Below, one piece after another: positions 2,173 to 32,645 of a stretch of 34,028 nucleotides of DNA (positions are counted from its first letter, which is position 1; the number at the start of each line of letters is the position of its first letter). Below the pieces are notes generated by a model that was given only the letters and a program-made list of their open reading frames with translations, was not told the DNA's origin and did not search any database. Source of the stretch: an uncultured Eubacteriales bacterium (GTDB lineage Bacteria; Bacillota; Clostridia; Lachnospirales; Lachnospiraceae); contig ONFL01000083.1 of assembly GCA_900317095.1 (NCBI GenBank), forward strand, positions 1 to 34,028, given 5' to 3'. Made by a program: the position numbers and the translations under genes.

Positions 2173-3216
2173 ATGGATAAGATCATAGAATTGAAAAATC
2201 TGACAAAAAATTACGGAGACCAGCAGGTCCTGCGCGGCATTAATCTGGACATCCATCAGAATGAGTTCCTGACCCTGCTGGGGCCCAGCGGCTGCGGCAA
2301 GACCACGACCCTGCGCATCATCGCCGGCTTTGAGGAACCCAGCAGCGGCCAGGTCCTCTTTGACGGCATGGACATTACGCCGGTTCCCTCCTACAAGAGG
2401 GAGGTCAACACTGTTTTCCAGAAATACGCCCTCTTTCCCCATATGAACGTATTCGACAACGTGGCCTTCGGCCTCAATATCCGCAAGATAGACAAGAATG
2501 TGGTCAAGACCAAAGTGGACCGCATGCTTGCCCTGGTGGGGCTGGCGGATTTCGGGACACGGGATGTGACCCGGCTTTCCGGAGGGCAGCAGCAGCGCGT
2601 GGCCATAGCCCGGGCCCTGGTAAATGAACCCAAGGTCCTGCTGCTGGATGAGCCGCTGGGCGCCCTGGATGCCAAGCTGCGCAAGGAGATGCAGGTGGAG
2701 CTGAAAAAGATCCAGCAGGAAGTGGGCATCACATTTGTCTTCGTAACCCACGACCAGGAGGAGGCGCTGACCATGTCCGACACGGTGGTCGTCCTCAACG
2801 AGGGAACGATCCAGCAGATCGGCACCCCCATAGATATATACAATGAACCCGAGAACCGCTTTGTGGCCAATTTTATAGGCGAGTCCAATATCATAGACGG
2901 TATCATGAACCATGATCTTCTGGTTACATTCGATGACGTGCAGTTTGAATGCGTGGACAAGGGCTTTCCGGAAAATGAGCCTGTCGATGTTGTTCTGCGT
3001 CCGGAAGATATCGATATCGTAAAACCCGAAGACGGAAAGCTGACCGGCGTGGTCCGCTCTGTCGTTTTCAAGGGCGTCCACTACGAGATCAGCGTTGAGA
3101 CAAAATACCGTACATATAAGATCCACACTACAGATTACTGCGCGGTGGGAACGCCGGTAGGGCTGACCCTGACGCCGGATGATATCCACATCATGTGGAA
3201 GATGGGGAGCTATTAA
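2173..3216 (+). CDS. potA: Spermidine/putrescine ABC transporter, ATP-binding protein PotA
   Basis: The ATPase of a polyamine importer, 347 residues, acting on the inner face of the membrane. Visible are Walker [10 protein letters not shown] (37-45), Q-loop [12 protein letters not shown] signature LSGGQ (135-139), Walker B LLLDEP (156-161), the D-loop, and the switch histidine in VTHDQEEAL (H193). The C-terminal ~110 residues form the TOBE-type regulatory domain typical of PotA/MalK-like subunits ([12 protein letters not shown]). The start has a strong GGAGGAAG site. Its stop overlaps the potB start as TAATG, indicating translational coupling. The identity of potB and of the fused potCD gene supports polyamine rather than another substrate. 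Confidence 0.95.
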
Positions 3217-4053: not shown

Positions 4054-5925
4054 ATGCAGAAAAAGTCAAAAGGAATCTTTTCGAAGATATACATCGCTCT
4101 GTGCTTTGCTTTCTTTTACCTGCCGATCGTGGTAACCATCGTCTTTTCCTTCAACTCTTCCAAGTCTCTCTCGAATTTTACGGGATTTTCCCTGCGCTGG
4201 TATGCTTCCCTGCTGCAGAACGGAGAGGTTGTCAAGGCAGTCTATGTGTCTGTTACCATAGCGGTGCTGGCAACGATCATTTCCACGGTCCTGGGAACGA
4301 TCACCGCCATCGGCCTGTCAAAAACCAGAAAGATCCTCCGGGACGCGATGCTGAGCCTGAATGATATCCCCATCCTCAACCCGGATATTGTTACGGCTAT
4401 TTCTCTGATGCTGCTCTTCTCCTCCCTGGGAATGGAGAAGGGCTATATGACCATGCTGCTGGCCCATATAGGCTTCTGTACGCCCTTTGTCATAACAAGC
4501 GTCTATCCCAAGGTGAGAGGACTGGATCCCAGCCTGGCCGATGCTGCCATGGATCTGGGCGCCACGCCCTTCCAGGCTCTGACAAAGGTCATCCTGCCTA
4601 TCCTGCGGCCGGGCATTTTCGCGGGCATTCTGCTGTCCTTTACCATGTCCTTCGATGACTTCGTCATTTCCTACTTTGTATCCGGAAACGGCGTAAAAAA
4701 TATTTCCATCGTGGTCTACAACATGACAAAGCGCATCAATTCGACCATCAACGCCCTGTCTACCCTGGTGATCCTTGTCATTATCCTGGTGCTGGTCGCA
4801 TTCAGGATCCTGCCCAGGGTCCACAGGAAGAGGCATCCTGAGGAGGCGGGCAAAGACAAGAGCAGGAAGAACCGCAATCTGGGTATCGGCATGGCCGCCC
4901 TGGCAGGTCTGCTGGTACTGGGGACCTGGGCAGCGGTCCACACCAGCGGAGCCAGCAGGGAGCTGCGGGTCTACAATGCCGGTGAGTACATGGATCTGGA
5001 CCTGCTCAAGGAATTTGAGCAGAAATACAACTGCACGGTCATCTACGAAACATTTGAATCAAATGAAACAATGTATACCAAGCTGCTGGCCGGTGATCAG
5101 TATGACATCCTGGTGCCCTCCGACTACATGATAGAGAGGCTGATAAAGGAAGATTACCTGCAGCCCCTGGACTGGGACCTGATAAGCAATAAGGACGCGA
5201 TAAACCCTGATGTACTTGGGAAGGACTATGATCCCGACAATACATACAGCGTGCCCTATTTCTGGGGAAATGTCGGCATCCTTTATGATAAGAGAGTGGT
5301 TTCCCAGGAGGATGCTGCCCAGGGCTGGGATCTGCTGATGAACCCCAAATACGCCGGCCGCCTTTATATGTATGATTCCGAGCGCGATTCCATGATGGTA
5401 GCCCTCAAGGCCCTGGGCTATTCCATGAACACCTCAGATCCGCAGCAGCTGCAGGAGGCCTACGATTGGCTCATTAAGCAGAGAGATACCATGAAGCCCA
5501 TCTATGCCGGCGACGATGTCATAGACAACATGATCTCCGGCAACAAGGCCATCGCTGTAGTTTATTCCGGCGACGCCACCTATATCATGTCCGAAAATCC
5601 CAATCTGGGCTACATCATGCCGGACCAGGGAACAAATCTCTGGTATGACGCCATGGTCATGACAAAGAGCTGCCGCAATACGGAGCTGGCCGAGGAGTTT
5701 ATGGACTTTTTCCTGGAGAAGGACAATGCCCTGCGCAACACGCAGTTTGTCGGCTATTCATCTCCCGTGGAATCTGTCTATGAACAGATGCAGAATGAGG
5801 ATTACGAGGGCATCTCCGCTTACGTGCCGCGGGTCGGCTATGAGAAGGATGAAATATTCCACTATCAGGATGCAGAGACCAAAAAGCTTTTTGCCCAGCT
5901 GTGGACAAAAGTCAAAGCCCAGTAG
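4054..5925 (+). CDS. potCD: Fused polyamine permease PotC and substrate-binding protein PotD
   Basis: A 623-residue single frame joining two normally separate subunits. Residues 1-255 are a PotC-type permease with the EAA loop AAMDLGATPFQALTKVILP (164-182). A basic, charged linker follows (about 256-275), then a hydrophobic segment at about 276-294 that probably re-enters the membrane in place of the PotD signal peptide. From about 300 on it is a periplasmic-binding-type domain (LRVYNAGEYMDLDLLKEFEQ, then IVPSDYMIERL-like and DAMVMTKSC), matching PotD. The binding protein is thus tethered to the permease on the outer face. There is no frameshift or stop in the linker region. The unit ends at the strong hairpin at 5974-6010. 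Fusions like this occur in some Clostridia; how common they are I cannot check. Confidence 0.92.
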   Translation: MQKKSKGIFSKIYIALCFAFFYLPIVVTIVFSFNSSKSLSNFTGFSLRWYASLLQNGEVVKAVYVSVTIAVLATIISTVLGTITAIGLSKTRKILRDAMLSLNDIPILNPDIVTAISLMLLFSSLGMEKGYMTMLLAHIGFCTPFVITSVYPKVRGLDPSLADAAMDLGATPFQALTKVILPILRPGIFAGILLSFTMSFDDFVISYFVSGNGVKNISIVVYNMTKRINSTINALSTLVILVIILVLVAFRILPRVHRKRHPEEAGKDKSRKNRNLGIGMAALAGLLVLGTWAAVHTSGASRELRVYNAGEYMDLDLLKEFEQKYNCTVIYETFESNETMYTKLLAGDQYDILVPSDYMIERLIKEDYLQPLDWDLISNKDAINPDVLGKDYDPDNTYSVPYFWGNVGILYDKRVVSQEDAAQGWDLLMNPKYAGRLYMYDSERDSMMVALKALGYSMNTSDPQQLQEAYDWLIKQRDTMKPIYAGDDVIDNMISGNKAIAVVYSGDATYIMSENPNLGYIMPDQGTNLWYDAMVMTKSCRNTELAEEFMDFFLEKDNALRNTQFVGYSSPVESVYEQMQNEDYEGISAYVPRVGYEKDEIFHYQDAETKKLFAQLWTKVKAQ

Positions 5926-5973
5926 GCAGCTGCAGCCGGACCGGGAACGGATATTACGGACTTTCGCAGCAGC

Positions 5974-6012
5974 AATAGGGCACCGCCATCAGCGCGGTGC
6001 CCTATTTTGTCT
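5974..6012 (+). terminator. Rho-independent terminator of the pot operon
   Basis: Arms AATAGGGCACCGC (5974-5986) and GCGGTGCCCTATT form a 13-base-pair stem with a short loop, followed by TTTGT. It isolates the pot operon from the iron region. Confidence 0.85.
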
Positions 6013-6024
6013 TCTGGCAGTTAT

Positions 6025-6039
6025 TGAAAATAATTATCA
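6025..6039. promoter_or_regulatory. Fur box 1 (7-1-7, one mismatch)
   Basis: TGAAAAT-A-ATTATCA matches the 7-1-7 Fur consensus TGATAAT-N-ATTATCA at 13 of 14 defined positions. It lies about 20 bases upstream of the -35 of the Fur-like gene promoter. Confidence 0.7.
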
Positions 6040-6054
6040 ATAGCCGCCACAGAA

Positions 6055-6105
6055 GTTAGTTGGCTTTAACCGACCCTCAATTTATAATAATGATAGTTGT
6101 TATCA
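6055..6105 (+). promoter_or_regulatory. Promoter of the Fur-like gene, with second Fur box over the start site
   Basis: The -35 TTGGCT (6060-6065) and -10 TATAAT (6083-6088) have 17-base spacing. Directly downstream, TGATAGT-T-GTTATCA (6091-6105) matches the 7-1-7 Fur consensus at 12 of 14 positions, placed so that a bound repressor would cover the transcription start. A separate motif, GTTAGTT followed by TTTAACC (6055-6071), overlaps the -35; a similar word occurs at two other promoters of this region. Confidence 0.7.
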
Positions 6106-6153
6106 AGTACATGCAGAATGATGCTGCCACCGGGAAAAGAGTGAGATCAGAAA

Positions 6154-6630
6154 GTGAAGGATTATGAGAATGGCGCAAGCCGGGATTTCCCGTCCGAAGA
6201 TAAATGGAGCGGCACAGACTCCCGCTTCCGGAGAGCGGACATCTCTGACGGCAGGGAACGCGTACAGGGGATGCTGCGCAAAAAAGGTTTTCGGGTGACC
6301 CGCCAGAGACAGATCATCCTGGATGTGATCTTTGATAATGATTGTTCCAGCTGCAAGGAGATTTATTATCTGGCGGCCCGCAAAGATCCGGGTATAGGCA
6401 TGGCAACGGTCTACCGCATGGTGAACACGCTGACGGAGATCGGTGTTCTGCAGGCGGCGGCGCTGCGGCCCGCGCAGGGCTGCGGTCTGGCAGCGGGTCT
6501 TGATATAGAGCTGAGCGACGGAGACGTGGTCCATCTGAATAAAGAAGAGACCATGAGTGTCATTAATACCATTCTGCGGCGGAAAGGGATCCGAGATAAC
6601 CGCCCGGTCCGGGGCCTGCGCCTGAAGTAG
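6154..6630 (+). CDS. Fur-family winged-helix regulator with divergent, metal-ligand-poor C-terminus
   Basis: 158 residues from GTG 6154, the first possible start after an in-frame TGA at 6142; ATG 6271 (119 residues) is the alternative, and neither has a strong ribosome site. The DNA-binding half is clearly Fur-like: LRKKGFRVTRQRQIILDVI, then EIYYLAARKDPGIGMATVYRMVNTLTEIGVL (about residues 41-107). After the wing the protein departs from the family. The normal HHHHLICxxC-type metal-binding and dimerisation half is missing, and only a short stretch rich in D/E with one H (LDIELSDGDVVHLNKEE) and a basic tail follows. Canonical Fur is near 140-150 residues with several His/Cys ligands. It could be a metal-independent or differently sensing member. 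Two Fur boxes upstream imply control by Fur or by itself. It has its own terminator at 6677-6707. Confidence 0.8.
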   Translation: MKDYENGASRDFPSEDKWSGTDSRFRRADISDGRERVQGMLRKKGFRVTRQRQIILDVIFDNDCSSCKEIYYLAARKDPGIGMATVYRMVNTLTEIGVLQAAALRPAQGCGLAAGLDIELSDGDVVHLNKEETMSVINTILRRKGIRDNRPVRGLRLK

Positions 6631-6676
6631 ATCTGCTAAAGAGACACGGTATGCAGAGTATAAGAGAATATCTGGC

Positions 6677-6707
6677 GGGAGATGCAGGCACTGCTTTCTC
6701 CCTTTTT
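6677..6707 (+). terminator. Rho-independent terminator after the Fur-like gene
   Basis: Arms GGGAGA (6677-6682) with GCAG, and CTGC with TCTCCC (6697-6702), form a stem with a small internal bulge, followed by TTTTT. It separates the regulator from the DUF6110/ATPase genes, which have their own promoter. Confidence 0.75.
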
Positions 6708-6742
6708 GTCGCTGTTGATAGAATTTCATCAATAAGCGGAAC

Positions 6743-6830
6743 GGTTAGTTTCTGTTCGATTCCGCGATGATGCTATAATCCTTTTAACAGCAAAAATCAT
6801 TAATACGCAGCCGCTGTGCTGCGATTTTTT
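6743..6830 (+). promoter_or_regulatory. Promoter and leader of the DUF6110-ATPase operon, with terminator-like hairpin
   Basis: An extended -10, TGCTATAAT (TATAAT at 6774-6779), is clear; the -35 position (6751-6756, TCTGTT) is poor, as is usual for extended -10 promoters. GGTTAGTTTCTGTT (6743-6756) covers that -35. In the leader, CGCAGC (6806-6811) and GCTGCG (6818-6823) form a six-pair stem with a six-base loop followed by ATTTTTT (6824-6830). The hairpin ends about 23 bases before the start codon, leaving AAAGAAAGGACGG as ribosome site. It has the shape of an intrinsic terminator inside the leader, so attenuation is possible. Confidence 0.6.
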
Positions 6831-6853
6831 ATTAAAGAAAGGACGGATGTTTT

Positions 6854-7147
6854 ATGTTTAACTGGCGTGGATTTGTTTGTGGTGTACTGGCAGGAACTGT
6901 AGGGATCCATATTCTCTCAAGCCGCGAGGCTAAGACGGTATATGCTCATGTAGGAGCCGCTATCCTGCATGGAAAGGATGATATCGTAAAGCAGGGGCAG
7001 ATCCTGCAGGAGAACTGCGCTGATATCGGAGCCCGCGCGAAGAAGATAAATGAAGAGAGCTACGCGAAAGAAAGAGAAAGCATGATCAGCAACGTTTACG
7101 AGAAGAAGGCAGAACAGGAAGCGGCCCAGGCAGAGTCAGCGCAGTAA
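6854..7147 (+). CDS. DUF6110 family small membrane-anchored protein (ferrosome-type partner candidate)
   Basis: 97 residues. An N-terminal hydrophobic helix spans about residues 5-24 (FVCGVLAGTVGIHILSS). A conserved-looking REAKTVYAHVGAAILHGKD stretch follows, then a long charged helical tail with Gln, Glu and Ala, likely coiled coil. I recognise it as DUF6110, a Firmicute family found next to heavy-metal P-type ATPases; its biochemical role is not established to my knowledge. It lies 15 bases before the P-type ATPase with its own GAAAGGACGG site, so they form one operon. In ferrosome loci a small hydrophobic protein, FezA, accompanies the FezB ATPase; this protein occupies that position, but equating the two is inference. 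Confidence 0.75.
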   Translation: MFNWRGFVCGVLAGTVGIHILSSREAKTVYAHVGAAILHGKDDIVKQGQILQENCADIGARAKKINEESYAKERESMISNVYEKKAEQEAAQAESAQ

Positions 7148-7162
7148 GGAGCGGGGCTGCAT

Positions 7163-9439
7163 ATGAAAGGATATATTGCGGACCGGACACCCGGGCGTGT
7201 CCGGGTTGTATTAGACTGTGAACCACTGTCATTCAGGGAAGCAGATGTCCTGGAATACTATCTTGAAAAGATTCCCGGTGTGAAAAGGGCTTATGCCCAT
7301 GATCTCACCCATTGCGTGACCGTGATATTAAGGAGGCCGGAGCAGGAACTGCTGCAGGCGGCTTCCGGAAAATATTTCCGGGAAGAGGGGATCCCTTCCC
7401 GGGCAGCCCTGCTTTATGACCGGGCACAGAGCGGGCGGCCCTATGCGCCGGGGGCCTATCTGGATATGGTGATCCAGCCCCAGCGCCGGACTACCTGCGC
7501 GGCTCTGCAGGCAGAAAGGGATTTTTACCGGGATACAGAGGAACAGATCCTGCAGGCCCTGCGAATCTATGAGGGGCCGACGCAGGATCTGCTCCAGTCC
7601 TGCCCTGAAAATCCGGGCCGGCAGATAAACCGGGAGTACCAGATGAAACTGATCGATCTTGTGGGATGGAAGCTTTTCCGTATGTTCATCCTGCCGGCGC
7701 CGATAGAGAACATCTGGACCATCGTGCAGAGCCTGCGCTGTATCTGGAGAGGGCTGAGAACAGTGAAAGACAGAAAGCTGCGGGTAGAGCAGCTGGATGC
7801 CATTTCCGTCGGGGTATCTGTTCTCCGCGGTGATTATGCTACAGCCGGAACGGTCATGTTCCTGCTGCAGCTGGGCGACCTGATAGAGGAGTGGACCCGC
7901 AAGAAGGCCGTCAGCGATCTGGCCCGGAGCATGTCTCTGCATGTGGATAAAGTCTGGATCCGTGAGGGCAGCACTGAGATGGAAGTTCCCATTTCCGGGG
8001 TAAAGGCCGGTGATACCATTGTGGTCCGCTCCGGCAGCGTAATTCCTCTGGACGGGAAGATACTTGAAGGCGAGGTTCTGATAAACCAGGCCTCCATGAC
8101 CGGCGAGTCCATGCCCGTGCGGGGCCGCGGCGGCGATCCGGTCTATGCCGGAACCGTGCTGGAAGAGGGCGAGTGTACCATTGAGGTAACATCCGGTGCG
8201 GGCAGCGGCCGCTATGACAAGATCGTCCACATGATAGAGGGAACTGAAAAGATGAAGTCAGATACGGAGAATAAAGCCGTTCATCTGGCGGACCGGCTTG
8301 TTCCCTTCAGTCTGGCCGGTACTGCCCTGACGCTGCTGCTGACCCGGAACGTCAACAAGGCAGTGTCGGTCCTCATGGTCGATTATTCCTGCGCTCTAAA
8401 GCTGTCCATTCCGCTGGCTGTATTGTCAGCCATCCGGGAGTGCGGGGAAGAAAGGATCGTTGTCAAGGGCGGGCGCTATATGGAGAGTGTCGCCAAAGCC
8501 GATACCATCGTCTTTGATAAGACCGGAACCCTGACACGGGCTGTGCCCAGGGTTGTCGGGATCACACCTTTCGGCGGCAGCAGTGAGGAGGATGTATTGC
8601 GGATCGCTGCCTGCCTGGAGGAGCATTATCCCCATTCCATGGCCAGCGCGGTCGTAAAGGAAGCTGCCAGCCGCGGCATTACTCATGATGAGATGCATTC
8701 CCAGGTGCAGTATGTTGTCGCCCACGGGATCGCCAGCCATATTGACGGCAGGAAAGCCATTATCGGCAGCGCGCATTTTGTCTTTGAGGACGAGAAGACT
8801 GTGATCCCGGAGGGAGAACAGGAGAAATACGACTGCCTTGCACCCGAATATTCCCATCTCTATATGGCGATAGACGGAGTACTGGCAGGCGTCATAAGCA
8901 TTGCGGATCCTATCCGCGATGAGGTGCCCCAGGTGCTGGCAAAGCTGCGGGCCCTGGGCATCAGCAATATTGTCATGATGACAGGGGACGGTGAGAAGAC
9001 TGCGGCAGCCATAGCCCGCAAGGCCGGGATAGACCGCTATTTTGCCGAGGTCCTGCCGGAGGACAAGGCCGGATATGTCACGAAGATGCGGCAGGAGGGC
9101 CACACCGTTATCATGGTCGGTGACGGTATTAACGATTCACCGGCCCTGTCAGCAGCAGATGCCGGCATTGCGATCAGCGACGGCGCCGCCATTGCAAGAC
9201 AGATCGCAGACATCACCATGCGGGCCCGATCCCTGGAAGAACTGGTCTTCCTGCGCCGGATCAGCATGGCCATGAACCGGCGGGTAAAGAGAGACTTCCG
9301 TTTTGTTGTCGCTTTCAATACCCTGCTGATCGTGCTCGGCGTCATGGGGATACTGCCCGCGCAGACTTCCGCGCTGCTGCATAATTCCTCGACTCTGCTG
9401 CTCGCTGGATACAGCATGACAAATCTGCTGCCCCAGTAG
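7163..9439 (+). CDS. P1B-type metal-transporting ATPase with SCA motif (FezB-like / P1B-6 candidate)
   Basis: 758 residues. The N-terminus (1-75) resembles a ferredoxin-fold HMA domain without the CxxC motif and carries TPGRVRV at 9-15. Then come membrane helices, the actuator TGES (near 313), the membrane metal site DYSCALKLS (407-415), phosphorylation motif DKTGTLT with D452, and the hinge GDGINDSPAL (653-662). CPC or SPC, the usual P1B motif, is replaced by SCA with no proline. As I recall, this and a GR(I/V)R motif near the N-terminus mark the P1B-6 group that includes FezB, the ATPase needed for ferrosome (iron storage organelle) formation in Desulfovibrio and Clostridioides difficile. 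Substrate is therefore most likely iron(II). It forms an operon with the DUF6110 gene; a terminator follows at 9462-9504. Confidence 0.85.
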   Translation: MKGYIADRTPGRVRVVLDCEPLSFREADVLEYYLEKIPGVKRAYAHDLTHCVTVILRRPEQELLQAASGKYFREEGIPSRAALLYDRAQSGRPYAPGAYLDMVIQPQRRTTCAALQAERDFYRDTEEQILQALRIYEGPTQDLLQSCPENPGRQINREYQMKLIDLVGWKLFRMFILPAPIENIWTIVQSLRCIWRGLRTVKDRKLRVEQLDAISVGVSVLRGDYATAGTVMFLLQLGDLIEEWTRKKAVSDLARSMSLHVDKVWIREGSTEMEVPISGVKAGDTIVVRSGSVIPLDGKILEGEVLINQASMTGESMPVRGRGGDPVYAGTVLEEGECTIEVTSGAGSGRYDKIVHMIEGTEKMKSDTENKAVHLADRLVPFSLAGTALTLLLTRNVNKAVSVLMVDYSCALKLSIPLAVLSAIRECGEERIVVKGGRYMESVAKADTIVFDKTGTLTRAVPRVVGITPFGGSSEEDVLRIAACLEEHYPHSMASAVVKEAASRGITHDEMHSQVQYVVAHGIASHIDGRKAIIGSAHFVFEDEKTVIPEGEQEKYDCLAPEYSHLYMAIDGVLAGVISIADPIRDEVPQVLAKLRALGISNIVMMTGDGEKTAAAIARKAGIDRYFAEVLPEDKAGYVTKMRQEGHTVIMVGDGINDSPALSAADAGIAISDGAAIARQIADITMRARSLEELVFLRRISMAMNRRVKRDFRFVVAFNTLLIVLGVMGILPAQTSALLHNSSTLLLAGYSMTNLLPQ

Positions 9440-9461
9440 GGCAGAAAGATACATACGAAGA

Positions 9462-9504
9462 CCCCGGACGAACGATATGAGTATATTGTTTGTCCGGGAT
9501 TTTC
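9462..9504 (+). terminator. Rho-independent terminator after the P1B ATPase
   Basis: Arms CCCGGACGAAC (9463-9473) and GTTTGTCCGGG (9488-9498), one mismatch or wobble, are followed by ATTTTCTTAT. Confidence 0.75.
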
Positions 9505-9545
9505 TTATATTTTTCGTGGTTTTGACAGTAAAAAGCAAACATTAT

Positions 9546-9560
9546 TGATAATCATTATCA
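9546..9560. promoter_or_regulatory. Perfect 7-1-7 Fur box
   Basis: TGATAAT-C-ATTATCA matches the Fur consensus at all 14 defined positions. It lies ten bases upstream of the -35 of the DUF2325 gene, which makes iron repression by Fur very likely. Confidence 0.9.
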
Positions 9561-9569
9561 CAAACATAG

Positions 9570-9640
9570 TTGCACAGGCTCCCGGAATCTGATATTATAA
9601 AAACAAAGTTAGACAGAACTAACCACATAAATCGGTTAAT
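9570..9640 (+). promoter_or_regulatory. Promoter of the DUF2325 gene with inverted repeat in the leader
   Basis: TTGCAC (9570-9575), 17-base spacer, TATTAT (9593-9598). Just after the expected start is GTTAG-N6-CTAAC (9608-9623), an inverted repeat, followed by TCGGTTAA (9632-9639). The reverse complement, GGTTAGTTCTGTC, resembles the word at 6743-6756, suggesting a second shared regulator besides Fur. Confidence 0.65.
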
Positions 9641-9667
9641 ATCGGATTTGAACAGGAGCGGGGAACT

Positions 9668-9949
9668 ATGAGTGTTGTAATCATCGGGGGCCATGACCGC
9701 ATGGCAAGTCATTATAAGAAGATATGCAAGAACCACAAGTGTAAGGCGAAAGTATTCACACAGATGCCGGCAGACCTGTCCAGACAGATCGGATGTCCGG
9801 ATCTGTGCATCCTTTTTACCAGCACGGTATCTCACAAGATGGTGCGGGTTGCGGTAGACGAGGCCTGCAGGCGTAATTTCAAGCTTGTCCGCAGCCATAC
9901 CAGCAGCCAGGCAGCTCTGGAAGAGATCCTTGCTGCAAACGCAGGCTGA
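9668..9949 (+). CDS. DUF2325 family protein, Fur-controlled
   Basis: 93 residues, small soluble protein. It starts SVVIIGGHDRMASHYKKICK, a Rossmann-like strand with a GGHDRM motif, and continues AKVFTQMPADLSRQIG, then CILFTSTVSHKMVRVAVDEACRR and VRSHTSSQAALEEIL. These are the recurring motifs of DUF2325, whose function is unknown to me; the fold suggests a small nucleotide- or sugar-phosphate-binding-like domain. The cysteines in the middle (KICKNHKCKAK) could bind metal. A strong AGGAGCGGGG site precedes the ATG. It is a single-gene unit between a perfect Fur box and a bidirectional terminator, so a role in iron limitation is the best guess. Confidence 0.85.
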   Translation: MSVVIIGGHDRMASHYKKICKNHKCKAKVFTQMPADLSRQIGCPDLCILFTSTVSHKMVRVAVDEACRRNFKLVRSHTSSQAALEEILAANAG

Positions 9950-9980
9950 AGACTGACAGAGAAAAGACAATATATCGTTA

Positions 9981-10031
9981 AAAAACAGGCACGGGAGAAG
10001 CTTTTGATCCGCTTCTTCCCGTGCCTGTTTT
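9981..10031. terminator. Bidirectional terminator between DUF2325 gene and DtxR-family gene
   Basis: A long stem, AACAGGCACGGGAGAAGC pairing with GCTTCTTCCCGTGCCTGTT, is flanked by A-run on the left and T-run on the right, so it can stop transcription from both sides. Confidence 0.9.
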
Positions 10032-10048
10032 CGCGTAACTGAGATGTC

Positions 10049-10420
10049 TCAGTTCTTATTCTCCAGATAGATCTGCTTGATCCTGTCAAATGTCTCGTCA
10101 CTGATGACGTGCTCTATCCGGCAGGCATCCTTTTCCGCGGTCTGGCTGCTGATGCCGATGGACTGCAGGTAGTCTGTGAGAATGCGGTGGCGCTCGTAGA
10201 TCTTGCGGGCGATCGCCAGCCCTTCATCTGTGAGGAAAAGATAATTCTGGTCATCCATATCCACGTAGCCATTCTCCCGCAGGCGCTTCATGGCAACGCT
10301 GACAGAAGGCTTGGAAAAGCCCAGATGGTGTGCCACATCAATGGACCGCACTTCCGGTTTCTCTTTGGAAAGCACAAGGATTGCCTCAAGATAATCTTCG
10401 GGTGATTCCTGCATCTTCAT
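10049..10420 (-). CDS. DtxR/MntR-family metal-dependent transcriptional repressor
   Basis: 123 residues; an N-terminal winged helix (about 1-62, with IDVAHHLGFSKPSVSVAMKRL as the recognition region) and a helical dimerisation and metal-binding domain (63-123). It lacks the SH3-like third domain of DtxR, so it has the short MntR/TroR-like form. Putative ligands by comparison with MntR are D9, E12, H78, C100, E103 and H104. D9 is as in MntR, while cysteine at 100 is as in DtxR (CxxEH), so iron(II) rather than manganese is plausible. The minus-strand start has AAAGGAAG at good spacing. Transcription converges with the DUF2325 gene. It may bind the GGTTAGTT-type words nearby, which is inference. 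Confidence 0.88.
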   Translation of the reverse strand: MKMQESPEDYLEAILVLSKEKPEVRSIDVAHHLGFSKPSVSVAMKRLRENGYVDMDDQNYLFLTDEGLAIARKIYERHRILTDYLQSIGISSQTAEKDACRIEHVISDETFDRIKQIYLENKN

Positions 10421-10504
10421 GGGACAACTTCCTTTCTAAATAAATAACCTGAATAAATATCCTGGAAAAACACCTGGGGGTGTCTTTGTATAGTCGGTAT
10501 TTTT

Positions 10505-10533
10505 ACTTTATCACATTTTGATGAAAGGGTCAA
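10505..10533 (-). promoter_or_regulatory. Probable promoter of the DtxR-family gene
   Basis: On the minus strand, TTGACC (10533-10528), 17-base spacer, TAAAGT (10510-10505). The leader to the ATG at 10420 is about 80 bases and contains a small hairpin (ACACC/GGTGT, 10470-10483) with T-run on the minus strand. Confidence 0.5.
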
Positions 10534-10553
10534 AGCCGGCACAGCTTTTTGGA

Positions 10554-10582
10554 TGGACGGGAAGGGAGGTTTATGCTATGAT
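10554..10582 (+). promoter_or_regulatory. Probable promoter of the membrane protein-Nudix pair
   Basis: TGGACG (10554-10559), 17-base spacer, extended -10 TGCTATGAT (TATGAT at 10577-10582). The start codon of the next gene is 40 bases downstream. Confidence 0.45.
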
Positions 10583-10621
10583 GGCAATAGTACTTTCGAA
10601 AAATGAGGGAGAATAGAACAG

Positions 10622-11731: not shown

Positions 11732-11815
11732 TTGACAGGAGGGATGAGGGTGCTATACTGAAACCAACATATGAACAGTTGAACATATGATGATTTAATG
11801 AATGATCATTCATTA
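11732..11815 (+). promoter_or_regulatory. Promoter with ArsR/SmtB-type operator and a 20-base palindrome
   Basis: TTGACA (11732-11737), 16-base spacer, extended -10 TGCTATACT (TATACT at 11754-11759). At 11769-11788 lies ATATG-N2-CA-N2-TG-N2-CATAT, a gapped dyad of the kind bound by ArsR/SmtB zinc/cadmium repressors, placed just after the transcription start. A second, perfect 20-base palindrome centred on ATGATCAT occupies 11796-11815, immediately before the AGGAGGG ribosome site. Confidence 0.7.
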
Positions 11816-11833
11816 TTCAGGAGGGATTTTCAG

Positions 11834-12052
11834 ATGAAGAAAACATATAAGATCGATGTGGACTGTGCCAACTGTGCTGCCAAGATGGAAGAGGCCGCGA
11901 AGAAAGTAGAAGGCGTAAAGGATGCCAATGTCAACTTCATGACCCTGAAGATGAAGGTGGAATTTGAGGACGGCCATACACCGGAGGAGGTTATGCCCAA
12001 TATCCTTAAGGCCTGCCGCAAAGTTGAGAGCGACTGCGAGATTTTCTTCTAG
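11834..12052 (+). CDS. Stand-alone heavy-metal-associated (HMA) domain protein
   Basis: 72 residues, a ferredoxin-like HMA domain with the metal-binding CxxC as DCANCAAKME (C11, C14), followed by VEGVKDANVNFMTLKMKVEF. A second acidic-Cys stretch near the end (KACRKVESDCEIFF) may add ligands. It starts at ATG 11834 after AGGAGGG. The ATPase starts 11 bases after its stop and lacks an N-terminal HMA domain, so this is most likely the detached metal-binding domain of that pump; a CopZ-like chaperone role is the alternative. DC in front of the CxxC fits the zinc/cadmium group (ZntA/CadA) better than copper. Confidence 0.88.
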   Translation: MKKTYKIDVDCANCAAKMEEAAKKVEGVKDANVNFMTLKMKVEFEDGHTPEEVMPNILKACRKVESDCEIFF

Positions 12053-12063
12053 GAAGTGGGGAA

Positions 12064-13977
12064 ATGAACCGAAAACAGAAAAAAGTTCTGGTCCGTATCA
12101 TTATTTCCGCAGCCCTGCTGGTCATTTTCAGCCTGCTGCCGGTCAGGGGCTGGCTAAGATTCTTTCTGTTCCTGATCCCCTACCTTATTATCGGTTATGA
12201 TATTCTGAAGAAGGCCGGAAAGGGCATCCTCAACCGGCAGGTATTCGATGAGAATTTCCTCATGGCGGTGGCCACCATCGGGGCCATTATCCTGGGTGAG
12301 TATGTTGAGGGCTCCGCGGTCATGCTTTTCTATCAGGTCGGGGAACTCTTTCAGAGCTTTGCGGTGGGCAGGAGCCGGAAGAATATTACCGAGCTCATGG
12401 ATATCCGGCCGGATTATGCGAATCTGGAGACGGAAGACGGGACGGAAGAAGTCGATCCGGATGACGTGGAAGTCGGCAGCATTATTGTTGTAAAGCCCGG
12501 TGAGAAGATTCCCATAGACGGCCTTGTAGTGTCCGGAAGGTCTGCGCTTAACACCAGCGCGCTGACCGGCGAGAGCGTTCCCCGGGATGTGGGGCCCGGC
12601 GAACAGGTACTGAGCGGCAGTATCAATCAGAACGGTCTGCTGCGGATCCGCACGACACAGGAATTCGAGGAGTCTACGGCTTCGAAGATCCTGGATCTGG
12701 TGGAGAATGCCAGCTCCCGCAAGTCCCGGTCTGAGAACTTCATCACGAAATTTGCCCATTATTATACACCGGCAGTCTGCTACAGTGCCCTGGCTCTGGC
12801 CGTGGCGCCGCCGCTGGTGCGCATGGCTTTCCTGGGGCTTGCCCCCGAATGGGGGGACTGGATCCTGCGCGCACTGACATTTCTGGTCATCAGCTGCCCC
12901 TGTGCGCTGGTCATCAGCATTCCACTCAGCTTTTTTGCAGGTCTGGGCTGCGCCAGCCGCAATGGGATCCTGGTAAAGGGTTCCAACTATCTGGAGGAGC
13001 TGGCGTCCACAAAGTATGTGGTATTTGACAAGACCGGGACCATGACCCGGGGCGTCTTTGAAGTCAGCGGGATCCACCACAGCAGTATGCCTGAGGAGGA
13101 GCTGCTTGAATACGCGGCTCTGGCAGAGATGTATTCAAGCCACCCCATCAGCCAGAGTCTGCGCCGCGCCTGCGGCAGGGATCTGGACGAGCACCGGGTA
13201 AAGAACCTCGAGGAGATAGGCGGCCGGGGCATTACCGCCGAGGTGGACGGCCATAAGATCGCCGCCGGAAACGCAGGGCTCATGCAGGAGATGGGTATTG
13301 ACTACATGGACTGCCACAGTGTGGGCACGGTTGTACATGTGGCCATGGACGGGCAGTACGCCGGCCATATTCTGATCGCGGATCTGATAAAGCCGACTGC
13401 CCGGTCAGCAGTCCGCCAGCTGCATGAGGCAGGTGTAAAGAGCACGGTCATGCTGACCGGCGACAGCCGCCGGGTCGGCGAATCTGTGGCGCAGACACTG
13501 GGCATAGATGAAGTCCACGCACAGCTGCTGCCGGCCCAGAAGGTGGAGCTGGTAGAGCAGATGATCCAGAAGAAGGGAAAGGGAGAGATCCTGGCCTTCG
13601 TCGGGGACGGCATAAACGACGCACCGGTACTGGCCCGGGCAGACATCGGCATCGCCATGGGAGCCATAGGGTCGGATGCGGCCATAGAGGCGGCGGACGT
13701 GGTCCTTATGGATGATAACCCCGAGAAGATCTCTCTGGCGATCCGCATTGCCAGAAAATGCATCCGCATAGTCTATGAGAATATCATTTTCGCCATAGGC
13801 GTCAAAGTCCTCTGCCTGATCCTGGGCGCGCTGGGCATAGCCAATATGTGGGCGGCTATATTTGCTGATGTAGGCGTTATGGTCATCGCGGTCATCAATG
13901 CCATCAGGGCTCTGCGGATCCGGCAGGACAGACCGGCCGCTGATGCAGCGGCGGAGCAGGAAGCCGGACAGGCATAA
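12064..13977 (+). CDS. Zn2+/Cd2+/Pb2+-type P1B-2 efflux ATPase (CadA/ZntA family), lacking N-terminal HMA
   Basis: 637 residues. It begins directly with membrane helices. Key motifs are TGES in LTGESVPRD, the membrane site CPC (C278-P279-C280) within ISCPCALVISIPLSFFAGLG, phosphorylation site DKTGTMT (D322), and GDGINDAPVLARADIGIAMG. The last helices carry ADVGVMVIAVINAIRALR; the Asp there is a ligand in ZntA and marks the P1B-2 group. It exports divalent soft metals across the cytoplasmic membrane. The preceding gene supplies an HMA domain. The two form one operon from the promoter at 11732-11759, with a terminator at 14018-14045. No ArsR-type repressor gene lies in the window. Confidence 0.93.
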   Translation: MNRKQKKVLVRIIISAALLVIFSLLPVRGWLRFFLFLIPYLIIGYDILKKAGKGILNRQVFDENFLMAVATIGAIILGEYVEGSAVMLFYQVGELFQSFAVGRSRKNITELMDIRPDYANLETEDGTEEVDPDDVEVGSIIVVKPGEKIPIDGLVVSGRSALNTSALTGESVPRDVGPGEQVLSGSINQNGLLRIRTTQEFEESTASKILDLVENASSRKSRSENFITKFAHYYTPAVCYSALALAVAPPLVRMAFLGLAPEWGDWILRALTFLVISCPCALVISIPLSFFAGLGCASRNGILVKGSNYLEELASTKYVVFDKTGTMTRGVFEVSGIHHSSMPEEELLEYAALAEMYSSHPISQSLRRACGRDLDEHRVKNLEEIGGRGITAEVDGHKIAAGNAGLMQEMGIDYMDCHSVGTVVHVAMDGQYAGHILIADLIKPTARSAVRQLHEAGVKSTVMLTGDSRRVGESVAQTLGIDEVHAQLLPAQKVELVEQMIQKKGKGEILAFVGDGINDAPVLARADIGIAMGAIGSDAAIEAADVVLMDDNPEKISLAIRIARKCIRIVYENIIFAIGVKVLCLILGALGIANMWAAIFADVGVMVIAVINAIRALRIRQDRPAADAAAEQEAGQA

Positions 13978-31673: not shown

Positions 31674-32645
31674 ATGGGTGATAATGATTATTTATTCGCG
31701 GTTGCCCGGATCCATGTAAAGGAGAAGACCCTTCTTTCTGACATGGATGTTGCCCAGATGGCCGGTATGAAGACGGAGCAGGATGTGCTCAACTTCCTTA
31801 CCGACCGCGGCTGGGGCGATGGCAGCAGCCCGGTGGATGCGGCAGGCCTTCTTGCGGCAGAGGAGGCGAAGACCTGGGATCTGATGCGGGAGCTTCGTAT
31901 AGATCCGGCAGTTTTCCAGGTTCTGGAGCTGCCCAAGCTTTACCATAATCTGGGATGCGCCATCAAAGAGGCAGTCCTCGGCAAAGTGCCGGAGCGCGTT
32001 TATTTCGACATCGATAAGTATGACGGAGAAACGATGGGCCGCATCGTCCGCGAGAAGCGCTGGGAGGATCTTCCTTCTCATATGAAGGAGACTGCAAGGA
32101 ATGCTTACGAGCTGATGGCAAAGACCGGCGACGGCCAGCGCTGCGACAGTATTGTGGACCGGGGATGTATTCTTGCCTGCCTGGAGGCCGGGAAGAAGTC
32201 GAAGAACAGCCTGCTTGCCGAATATGAAGAATCCACGGCAGCTGTAACCGATATCAAGATTGCCGTGCGGGCAGCCCGGACCGGGAAGACGCTGAACTTC
32301 CTGAATGAAGCTCTGGCTCCCTGCAGTCAGGTCGATGTCCGCTACCTGGCTCTGGCAGCGGCGGAAGGGCAGGAGAAGCTGCTGAGCTGGCTGGAAGAGC
32401 ATGGATTCGGCAAGGCAGCCGAGGCTCTGAAGGATTCCCCGTCCGCCTTTGAGCGCTGGTGCGACAACCGGGTTATTGAGACGATTCTTCCCCAGAAGAG
32501 GAAATACAATTCCCAGGGTCCGGTCATTGCCTACTATCTCGCCCGCGAGAACGAGATAAAGACGGCAAGGATCATCCTCACGGCCAAGGCCAACGGTTTC
32601 TCGGAAGAATTTACAAAGGAAAGGGTAAGGAGGATGTATGGCTAA
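31674..32645 (+). CDS. V-type ATPase subunit C (central shaft adaptor)
   Basis: 323 residues, helical. It begins NDYLFAVARIHVKEKTLLSDMDVAQMAG, has the repeated three-lobed helical pattern of V-ATPase C/Vma6 (NFLTDRGWG, YFDIDKYDGETMGRIVREK, FLNEALAPCSQVDVRYLALAAAEG), and ends with [27 protein letters not shown], the conserved R-I-L-xK end. It joins the rotor ring (K) to the shaft. It starts 12 bases after subunit E and overlaps the start of subunit F by eight bases. Confidence 0.92.
   Translation: MGDNDYLFAVARIHVKEKTLLSDMDVAQMAGMKTEQDVLNFLTDRGWGDGSSPVDAAGLLAAEEAKTWDLMRELRIDPAVFQVLELPKLYHNLGCAIKEAVLGKVPERVYFDIDKYDGETMGRIVREKRWEDLPSHMKETARNAYELMAKTGDGQRCDSIVDRGCILACLEAGKKSKNSLLAEYEESTAAVTDIKIAVRAARTGKTLNFLNEALAPCSQVDVRYLALAAAEGQEKLLSWLEEHGFGKAAEALKDSPSAFERWCDNRVIETILPQKRKYNSQGPVIAYYLARENEIKTARIILTAKANGFSEEFTKERVRRMYG

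Follow-up and report, generated by a model that had tools for sequence, protein, structure and literature searches.

A probable ferrosome-type fezAB pair amid iron-starvation genes of a Lachnospiraceae-like gut bacterium, and FurL, a Fur-like protein without the Fur metal-site signature

Ferrosome formation in Clostridioides difficile is reported to need the membrane protein FezA and the transporter FezB, both of which are repressed by Fur (PMC12574912), and Rhodopseudomonas palustris CGA009 is described as making ferrosomes from six fez genes (PMC12016538). A review table assigns Fe(II) to the P1B-6 transporters (PMC7558416). DUF6110 proteins are described as typically encoded with P1B6 transporters, mainly in Firmicutes, and as related to DUF1490/PacL; the DUF6110-P1B6 pairing is therefore not new, being already in print (PMC9374683). 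Here we analyze a stretch of 34,028 nucleotides from an uncultured Eubacteriales bacterium (hereafter the window; contig C144 of a 2.07 Mb assembly in 148 contigs, 93.9% complete), in which such a pair lies beside a Fur-like gene that we call FurL. Judging from homology and gene context, we consider it likely that a Lachnospiraceae-like gut bacterium here carries a fezAB pair of ferrosome type amid iron-starvation genes, with FurL as a derivative of Fur. The storage genes are of a known kind; the fresh element is FurL, the altered regulator.

The pair consists of DUF6110, a small membrane protein of 97 residues (6854–7147, forward strand; Pfam 1.6e-19), and, after a gap of 15 base pairs (bp), a P1B-6 ATPase of 758 residues (7163–9439, forward strand; Pfam E1-E2_ATPase 9.1e-37). 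In the ATPase, VLMVDYSCALKL precedes DKTGT and ALLHNSST stands near the C-terminal end; SCA is located in transmembrane segment (TM) 4, HN in the last TM, and GRVR at residues 11–14. Both SCA in place of CPC and the N-terminal GRVR, which a preliminary description of this DNA had pointed out, are read in the sequence. The protein also carries extra N-terminal residues (about 45–125), its 758 residues comparing with about 690–730 in most relatives listed. Two sequence features of clostridial fezAB, namely an SCA/HN P1B-6 ATPase and a small membrane protein encoded directly upstream, are thus both present.

DUF6110 occurs in 29 of 391 same-class genomes, the window's own included (L and G numbers below are our handles for loci and genomes). 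One of the 29 is a Clostridioides genome of 4.26 Mb (G356), whose RpoB (1238 residues) is nearly identical in the compared part to chain C of PDB 7l7b, which we take to be C. difficile RNA polymerase; the few differences suggest a sister lineage of C. difficile. Its one DUF6110 gene stands directly before its only close relative of the window ATPase (702 bits; the next reaches 238). The window protein matches this DUF6110 at 40% over 92 columns (E 9e-14), and the two ATPases match at 45% over 758 columns. Synteny and family support the identification of the Clostridioides pair as FezA/FezB, and hence of the window pair as their counterparts, in line with the earlier proposal that DUF6110 plays the FezA part: in the Clostridioides genome it occupies the FezA position, directly upstream of the ATPase. 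In common with the C. difficile type, the window has DUF6110 and a P1B-6 ATPase side by side, with GR[VI]R, SCA and HN found in both pairs. In contrast, the window adds FurL, DUF2325 and a DtxR gene, and the 900 bp upstream of the Clostridioides pair hold no match to the Fur profile.

The ATPase was further placed in two trees, for both of which the program flagged long branches and uneven composition and neither of which holds a P1B-4 (SPC) reference. In the first (46 ATPases, motifs inspected for all), the window ATPase falls inside a group of 31 rows linked to DUF6110 (100/99); together with three plasmid SCA ATPases, this makes up a larger group of 34 rows (100/99), from which the Cu, Zn and TPC types are separate. 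In the second (30 rows, Clostridioides protein included), the window and Clostridioides ATPases share one 13-row clade (100/99) nested in a 22-row SCA clade (100/100). The motifs follow this division. Among the 46, DUF6110-adjacent ATPases have SC[AV] in TM4 and HN in the last TM, with a single exception (L121, CCA), and SCA with HN is also found in plasmid ATPases of Arcobacter, Azospirillum and Vibrio. CPC is carried by E. coli CopA and ZntA, the window's second P1B ATPase, and ATPases of Mycobacterium, Rhodococcus and Pseudonocardia. The Sinorhizobium meliloti pSymA ATPase has TPC; its motif and rough location in an unannotated record lead us to take it for Nia. Plasmid ATPases of Priestia and Bosea have ICG and ACG. 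The window enzyme thus groups with the SCA-type P1B-6 ATPases rather than with CopA, ZntA or the TPC type; neither an ATPase in a Zn or Cu clade nor a DUF6110 unrelated to FezA in context, which had been named in advance as grounds for giving up the ferrosome reading, was found. As a separate observation, the P1B ATPases of Priestia plasmid pBMG7 (L171) and Bosea plasmid pB32-1 (L169), with ICG or ACG replacing SCA, adjoin HMA2 proteins, or a VIT1/CCC1 transporter and a ferric-reductase-like gene. The window ATPase groups in the first tree with those of Anaerotignum, Gemmiger and Faecalibacterium, at a distance from its counterparts in three genus-mates (L118, L119, L121), which may reflect an insertion of fezAB between FurL and DUF2325 along this lineage.

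The pairing itself is conserved. In 121 loci gathered by ATPase or by DUF6110, 118 DUF6110 open reading frames (ORFs) were counted, and in 111 cases the ATPase is the next gene on the same strand (median gap 20 bp); some of the seven unpaired ORFs are at contig ends or have ATPases below the 700-bit cut. The 80 named loci are the best 80 of 357 matches, a sample that leans to close relatives. The same pair is found on two Deinococcus plasmids, and the distribution of DUF6110 in the window's order and family is patchy, with 23 of 61 genomes having it. Gram-negative multi-gene P1B-6 operons, whose SCA and HN ATPases form a sister branch in the second tree, have no annotated DUF6110 and encode other small proteins instead (YtxH-like, HMA2 and others); they are probably of fez type. 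Like the window, an Arcobacter plasmid operon of this kind has DUF2325 nearby: on p133_LEO_107 (L167:2063–6662), an SCA-type P1B ATPase stands in a multi-gene run with DUF2202 and a divergent DUF2325, so that a second phylum places DUF2325 beside a P1B-6 operon.

Downstream of the pair in the window are DUF2325 (9668–9949, forward strand, 93 residues; Pfam 2.2e-31) and, on the reverse strand, a DtxR/MntR-family repressor (10049–10420, 123 residues), whose membership is indicated by the presence of both the DNA-binding domain (Fe_dep_repress, PF01325, 3.9e-12) and the metal-binding domain (Fe_dep_repr_C, PF02742, 1.7e-17), each above the Pfam cut-off. The preliminary description had treated these two genes as an undescribed extension of a ferrosome locus. 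They do lie beside the pair, but they are not an ad hoc addition: other loci show them as members of a recurring iron cluster, together with FeoA, FeoB, the Fur-like gene, fezAB, DUF3793 and flavodoxin. When the neighbors in 100 loci were clustered, the clusters (identified by Pfam, save one) comprised DUF6110 (95), Fur-like (31), FeoA, FeoB, flavodoxin, DUF3793 and an HMA/FeoB-associated Cys-rich protein (15 each), DtxR (9), DUF2325 (7), shadow ORFs and, identified by eye, an ABC-transporter ATPase like that at 2173–3216 in the window (16). The Fur-like blastp cluster of 31 is looser than the FurL profile (25 matches) or the profile plus motif (23 loci). By profile cut-offs, at least one cluster gene lies within 5 kb in 32 of the 76 loci having 5 kb on both sides; with the window included, FurL is found in 16 of them, FeoB in 15, FeoA in 14, DUF3793 and flavodoxin in 12 each, DtxR in 6 and DUF2325 in 2. 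Four loci (L034, L126, L278 and L287) hold, in varying order, most of DtxR, two FeoA genes, FeoB, FurL, DUF6110, the ATPase, DUF2325, DUF3793 and flavodoxin. In three of five genus-mates (L271, L272, L274), fezAB is on a different contig from FurL, which is followed by DUF2325 and/or DUF3793 and flavodoxin and, after these, by DtxR. Of the other two, G003 lacks DUF6110 and has its FurL next to Feo genes, and G002 has DUF6110 and no FurL.

FurL (6154–6630, forward strand, 158 residues) opens the locus. Its match to Pfam FUR (PF01475; 4.1e-12, 46.8 bits) extends over positions 1–64 of the 121 in the profile. The earlier label of a Fur-like gene therefore holds for the winged-helix DNA-binding half and fails for an ordinary Fur: the HxHxxCxxC signature of the metal-binding and dimerization domain is absent, and the C-terminal half, on which the preliminary description did not remark, is degenerate. 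A model built from 21 members gathered 44 at no less than 75 bits, 20 of whose loci had been picked because they bear FurL. The TVYR-type recognition helix is present in all 44 and HxHxxCxxC in none, whereas 3 of 3 canonical Fur proteins checked have the latter. The DNA-binding half shows 15 invariant columns across the 21 aligned members. Fourteen of the 44 are 77–109 residues long and end soon after this half, a fifteenth (L273) is also almost tail-less, and truncation recurs in several branches of a weakly supported tree. Detached C-terminal halves were sought in the 350 bp downstream of short members; only weak matches were obtained (7.9 bits in L033, 3.0 in L025, lower in others), so most truncations look real. 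A C-terminal module of about 50 residues, from a model built on longer members, is common to 27 of the 44 (at least 45 bits).

Profile comparison relates FurL to canonical Fur (98.4% probability, E 7.9e-15), with the module aligning to the Fur dimerization domain, of which it looks like a worn-down version without ligands. The AlphaFold model of FurL (mean predicted local distance difference test score, pLDDT, 77; predicted template-modeling score, pTM, 0.52) matches Fur structures modestly, best 4rb3 (E 3e-5) at a low template-modeling (TM) score of 0.38; the winged-helix half and recognition helix are shared with canonical Fur, the HxHxxCxxC motif is not. In a tree of the DNA-binding half (80 columns; three canonical rows, two of them one protein), FurL stands apart. 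Two unusual members deserve mention: the gene just upstream of DUF6110 in L047 (4677–5516) joins the DNA-binding half to an HD_5 (HD-GYP-type) domain, and in L041 (4229–4438) a FurL fragment of 69 residues, apparently cut short, is followed by a DtxR gene.

In the samples, FurL occurs in the window's order alone and mostly in its family, probably Lachnospiraceae; named FurL-bearing loci include Blautia and Coprococcus. Among the matches listed for 116 relatives' genomes, scores drop from 104.9 to 63.2 bits with none between, and above this gap are 32 places in 31 genomes (28 of the window's family, 3 of other families of the order). In the 391 same-class genomes, all 10 matches of at least 91 bits are in the window's family and the other 7 reach 73 bits or less. 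Confinement to that family was ruled out by scores above 100 bits in G037, G039 and G498, which belong to other families of the order. We found no published account of FurL in the literature on ferrosomes, DUF6110, DUF2325, DUF3793, P1B-6 and Fur derivatives, a scope that leaves subscription papers mostly outside.

Two kinds of putative operator accompany these genes. Fur-type boxes were scored against TGATAATNATTATCA, which we take as the Fur-box consensus, and all three boxes of the preliminary description are in place together with its gene set: one perfect (9546–9560, forward strand, 122 bp before DUF2325) and two near-perfect (6025–6039 and 6091–6105, forward strand, with 1 and 2 mismatches). 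Over the whole 2.07 Mb assembly, those at 9546 and 6025 are the only sites with at most 1 mismatch (a reversed-pattern control gives 0), while many others elsewhere have at most 2. With at most 3 mismatches, the window has 8 sites against 1.22 expected, a number reached in 0 of 100 shuffles; a Fur-type site at 31679, where a V-type ATPase C/AC39 subunit gene begins (31674–32645), is taken as chance. The second operator, which the preliminary description had not mentioned, is the palindrome GTTAG-N6-CTAAC, exact at 9608–9623 (forward strand, 60 bp before DUF2325) and with 1 mismatch at 6055–6070 (forward strand); a looser form is not above chance. Amid the boxes of both kinds sit two forward-strand promoter-like sites, TTGGCT-17-TATAAT at 6060–6088 (10 of 12 hexamer positions) and TGCACA-16-TATTAT at 9571–9598 (9 of 12). 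The palindrome at 6055 overlaps the -35 region of the former and the box at 6091 lies just downstream of its -10. Ten promoter-like sites were observed in 5900–10600 against 3.9 expected from shuffles.

Both operators recur in relatives. When the 300 bp before start codons are considered, with any identical stretches entered a single time, the Fur-type pattern TGANAANNNTTNTCA precedes DUF6110 in 16 of 123 cases (shuffle mean 0.12), FeoA in 10 of 38, DtxR in 5 of 25 and FurL in 2 of 44. GTTAG-N6-CTAAC precedes DUF6110 in 11 of 123 (shuffle mean 0.00), FeoA in 13 of 38, DUF2325 in 8 of 14, DUF3793 in 10 of 24, DtxR in 8 of 25 and FurL in 6 of 44, with shuffle means of at most 0.02 across genes; since a single promoter region often serves FeoA and DtxR in divergent orientation, some sites are counted for both. 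The loci, some overlapping, contain 118 GTTAG sites and 62 Fur-type boxes in 1.78 Mb; nine of the former (eight distinct) have a Fur-type box centered within 70 bp, and the spacing is common to the window (9615, -62) and the genus-mate L274 (3887, -64). The DtxR protein is predicted to bind the palindrome. Before DUF6110, the Fur-type core box is found in 13 of 23 FurL loci and 9 of 96 others (p=3e-6) and the full box in 8 of 23 and 6 of 96 (p=9e-4), an association that counts FurL anywhere in the locus and ignores shared ancestry; a FurL fragment (L041) and a divergent short form (L190), both with the core box, were scored as lacking FurL. The GTTAG box there shows 0 of 23 against 13 of 96 (p=0.07).

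Several observations weigh against a ferrosome pair under the control of this iron cluster. In the window, neither operator is found within 350 bp before DUF6110; the Fur boxes flank the locus, preceding FurL and DUF2325, and a terminator-like hairpin with a T run (6806–6823, forward strand) separates FurL from DUF6110, so control of the pair would need read-through or an unseen promoter. This hairpin is not conserved in relatives, and an attenuator was rejected because a terminator-like hairpin lies within 120 bp before DUF6110 in 2 of 123 loci (0–2 in 10 shuffles), which leaves an ordinary FurL terminator. Elsewhere, within 350 bp upstream, 14 of 118 DUF6110 genes have the full Fur-type pattern and 12 of 118 have GTTAG, so that 104 and 106, respectively, do not. 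The Clostridioides pair has a weak Fur-type site upstream (L180:7553, 2 mismatches), equaled in 6% of shuffles of that 1 kb. The Fur-type pattern precedes DUF2325 in 1 of 14 cases, the window itself; DUF2325 is found in just one of the 76 full-flank loci besides the window, and 44 of the 76 have no nearby cluster gene. In the window's own family, 13 genomes have FurL and DUF6110, 4 FurL alone, 8 DUF6110 alone and 12 neither, a weak co-occurrence (p=0.045). A strict link of FurL to fez is ruled out by 61 genomes, of which 13 have both, 6 FurL alone, 10 DUF6110 alone and 32 neither, assuming that all 61 are among the 116 scanned and with FurL taken from the matches listed. A ferritin gene is also present, as are a canonical Fur (133 bits, contig C3) and two FeoB genes; iron control and storage in this genome are not left to this locus alone.

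With these points taken into account, we still favor a ferrosome-type pair, for which we infer the following course of events. When iron is scarce, Fur-type and DtxR-type repressors would leave their boxes and the genes would be expressed; expression of fez in iron starvation is suggested by the boxes in common with ferrous iron uptake and flavodoxin, and is what is reported for C. difficile. DUF6110 (FezA) would gather with the P1B-6 ATPase (FezB) in the membrane, and on the return of iron the ATPase would pump Fe(II) into a membrane-bound store. FurL would be a local Fur derivative, most likely still reading Fur-type boxes and no longer sensing iron in the manner of Fur; expressed from a promoter that bears boxes of both kinds, it might act as a brake or a Fur competitor at the fez and feo promoters, a role that is our most economical guess. 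As a general statement about the family, that its members are metal-blind, read Fur-type boxes without iron, are made in low iron and restrain fez and feo so that the ratio of two Fur proteins sets storage, with the HD-fused member perhaps coupling the switch to a second messenger, the proposal is tentative, and we give it roughly one chance in three.

Three other explanations were weighed. The first, which we regard as doubtful, is that FurL responds to another cue, with C..CKE and the Cys-rich tails found in part of the longer members holding a metal on cysteines or an iron-sulfur cluster. CKE is present in 41 of the 44 FurL proteins, C..CKE in 30 of the 44 and Cys-rich tails in several; however, the tails differ, the short forms have none, and the window protein retains C64, C67 and one tail Cys.

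Somewhat less probable is an iron or zinc efflux platform like the mycobacterial PacL-CtpC, in which DUF6110 would cluster the ATPase and the metal would leave the cell with no store formed. As in the window, a small membrane protein is encoded before a P1B ATPase in such systems, DUF6110 is reported to be related to DUF1490/PacL and usually encoded with P1B6 transporters (PMC9374683), and the CtpC-like, DUF1490-linked ATPases form the next branch out in the second tree and have HN in common with the window's (2 of 3 checked). Yet those ATPases have CPC rather than SCA and lie on separate branches. Pfam gives DUF6110 and no DUF1490 in the window, where the PacL platform has a DUF1490 domain with a C-terminal metal-binding motif; the window DUF6110 is without a His/Cys-rich tail, unlike some DUF1490 tails that hold His. 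When the DUF6110 and DUF1490 profiles were compared, the match was weak (probability 10%, E 0.003), and homology to PacL was not confirmed with these small profiles (4 rows for DUF1490). Moreover, FezA and FezB are described as required for ferrosomes in C. difficile (PMC12574912), and the operators in common with Feo uptake indicate starvation, not excess, so that storage primed in starvation fits better than export in excess. That FurL is instead a decaying Fur copy without a role, the true regulators being the canonical Fur and the DtxR protein, agrees with its degenerate or absent C-terminal half and the presence of that other Fur but is unlikely, given the 15 invariant columns, the recurring truncation on weakly supported branches, the module shared by the longer forms and the place of FurL beside Feo or Fez genes in many loci.

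The remaining features of the window are briefly noted. A terminator-like hairpin follows the ATPase (9463–9498, forward strand). Upstream of the locus, a single ORF (4054–5925) reads by eye as a PotC-PotD-like fusion of a spermidine/putrescine-type permease and a substrate-binding protein. Farther downstream (11798–13977), a separate HMA domain protein of 84 residues is encoded directly before the CPC-type P1B ATPase, which has no HMA domain of its own in Pfam and is probably a Zn/Cd exporter. No known RNA family reaches its gathering score in the window.

DUF6110 with an SCA/HN ATPase offers a sequence rule for spotting ferrosome-type genes in gut commensals, and with it the question whether ferrosomes are widespread in the flora of the healthy gut becomes open to test. 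If the proposed role of FurL is true, iron storage would be set by the ratio of two Fur proteins and not by iron alone. The FurL family would then be a classic metal regulator whose sensor half has been worn down or discarded, and whose DNA-reading half has been kept beside defined boxes.

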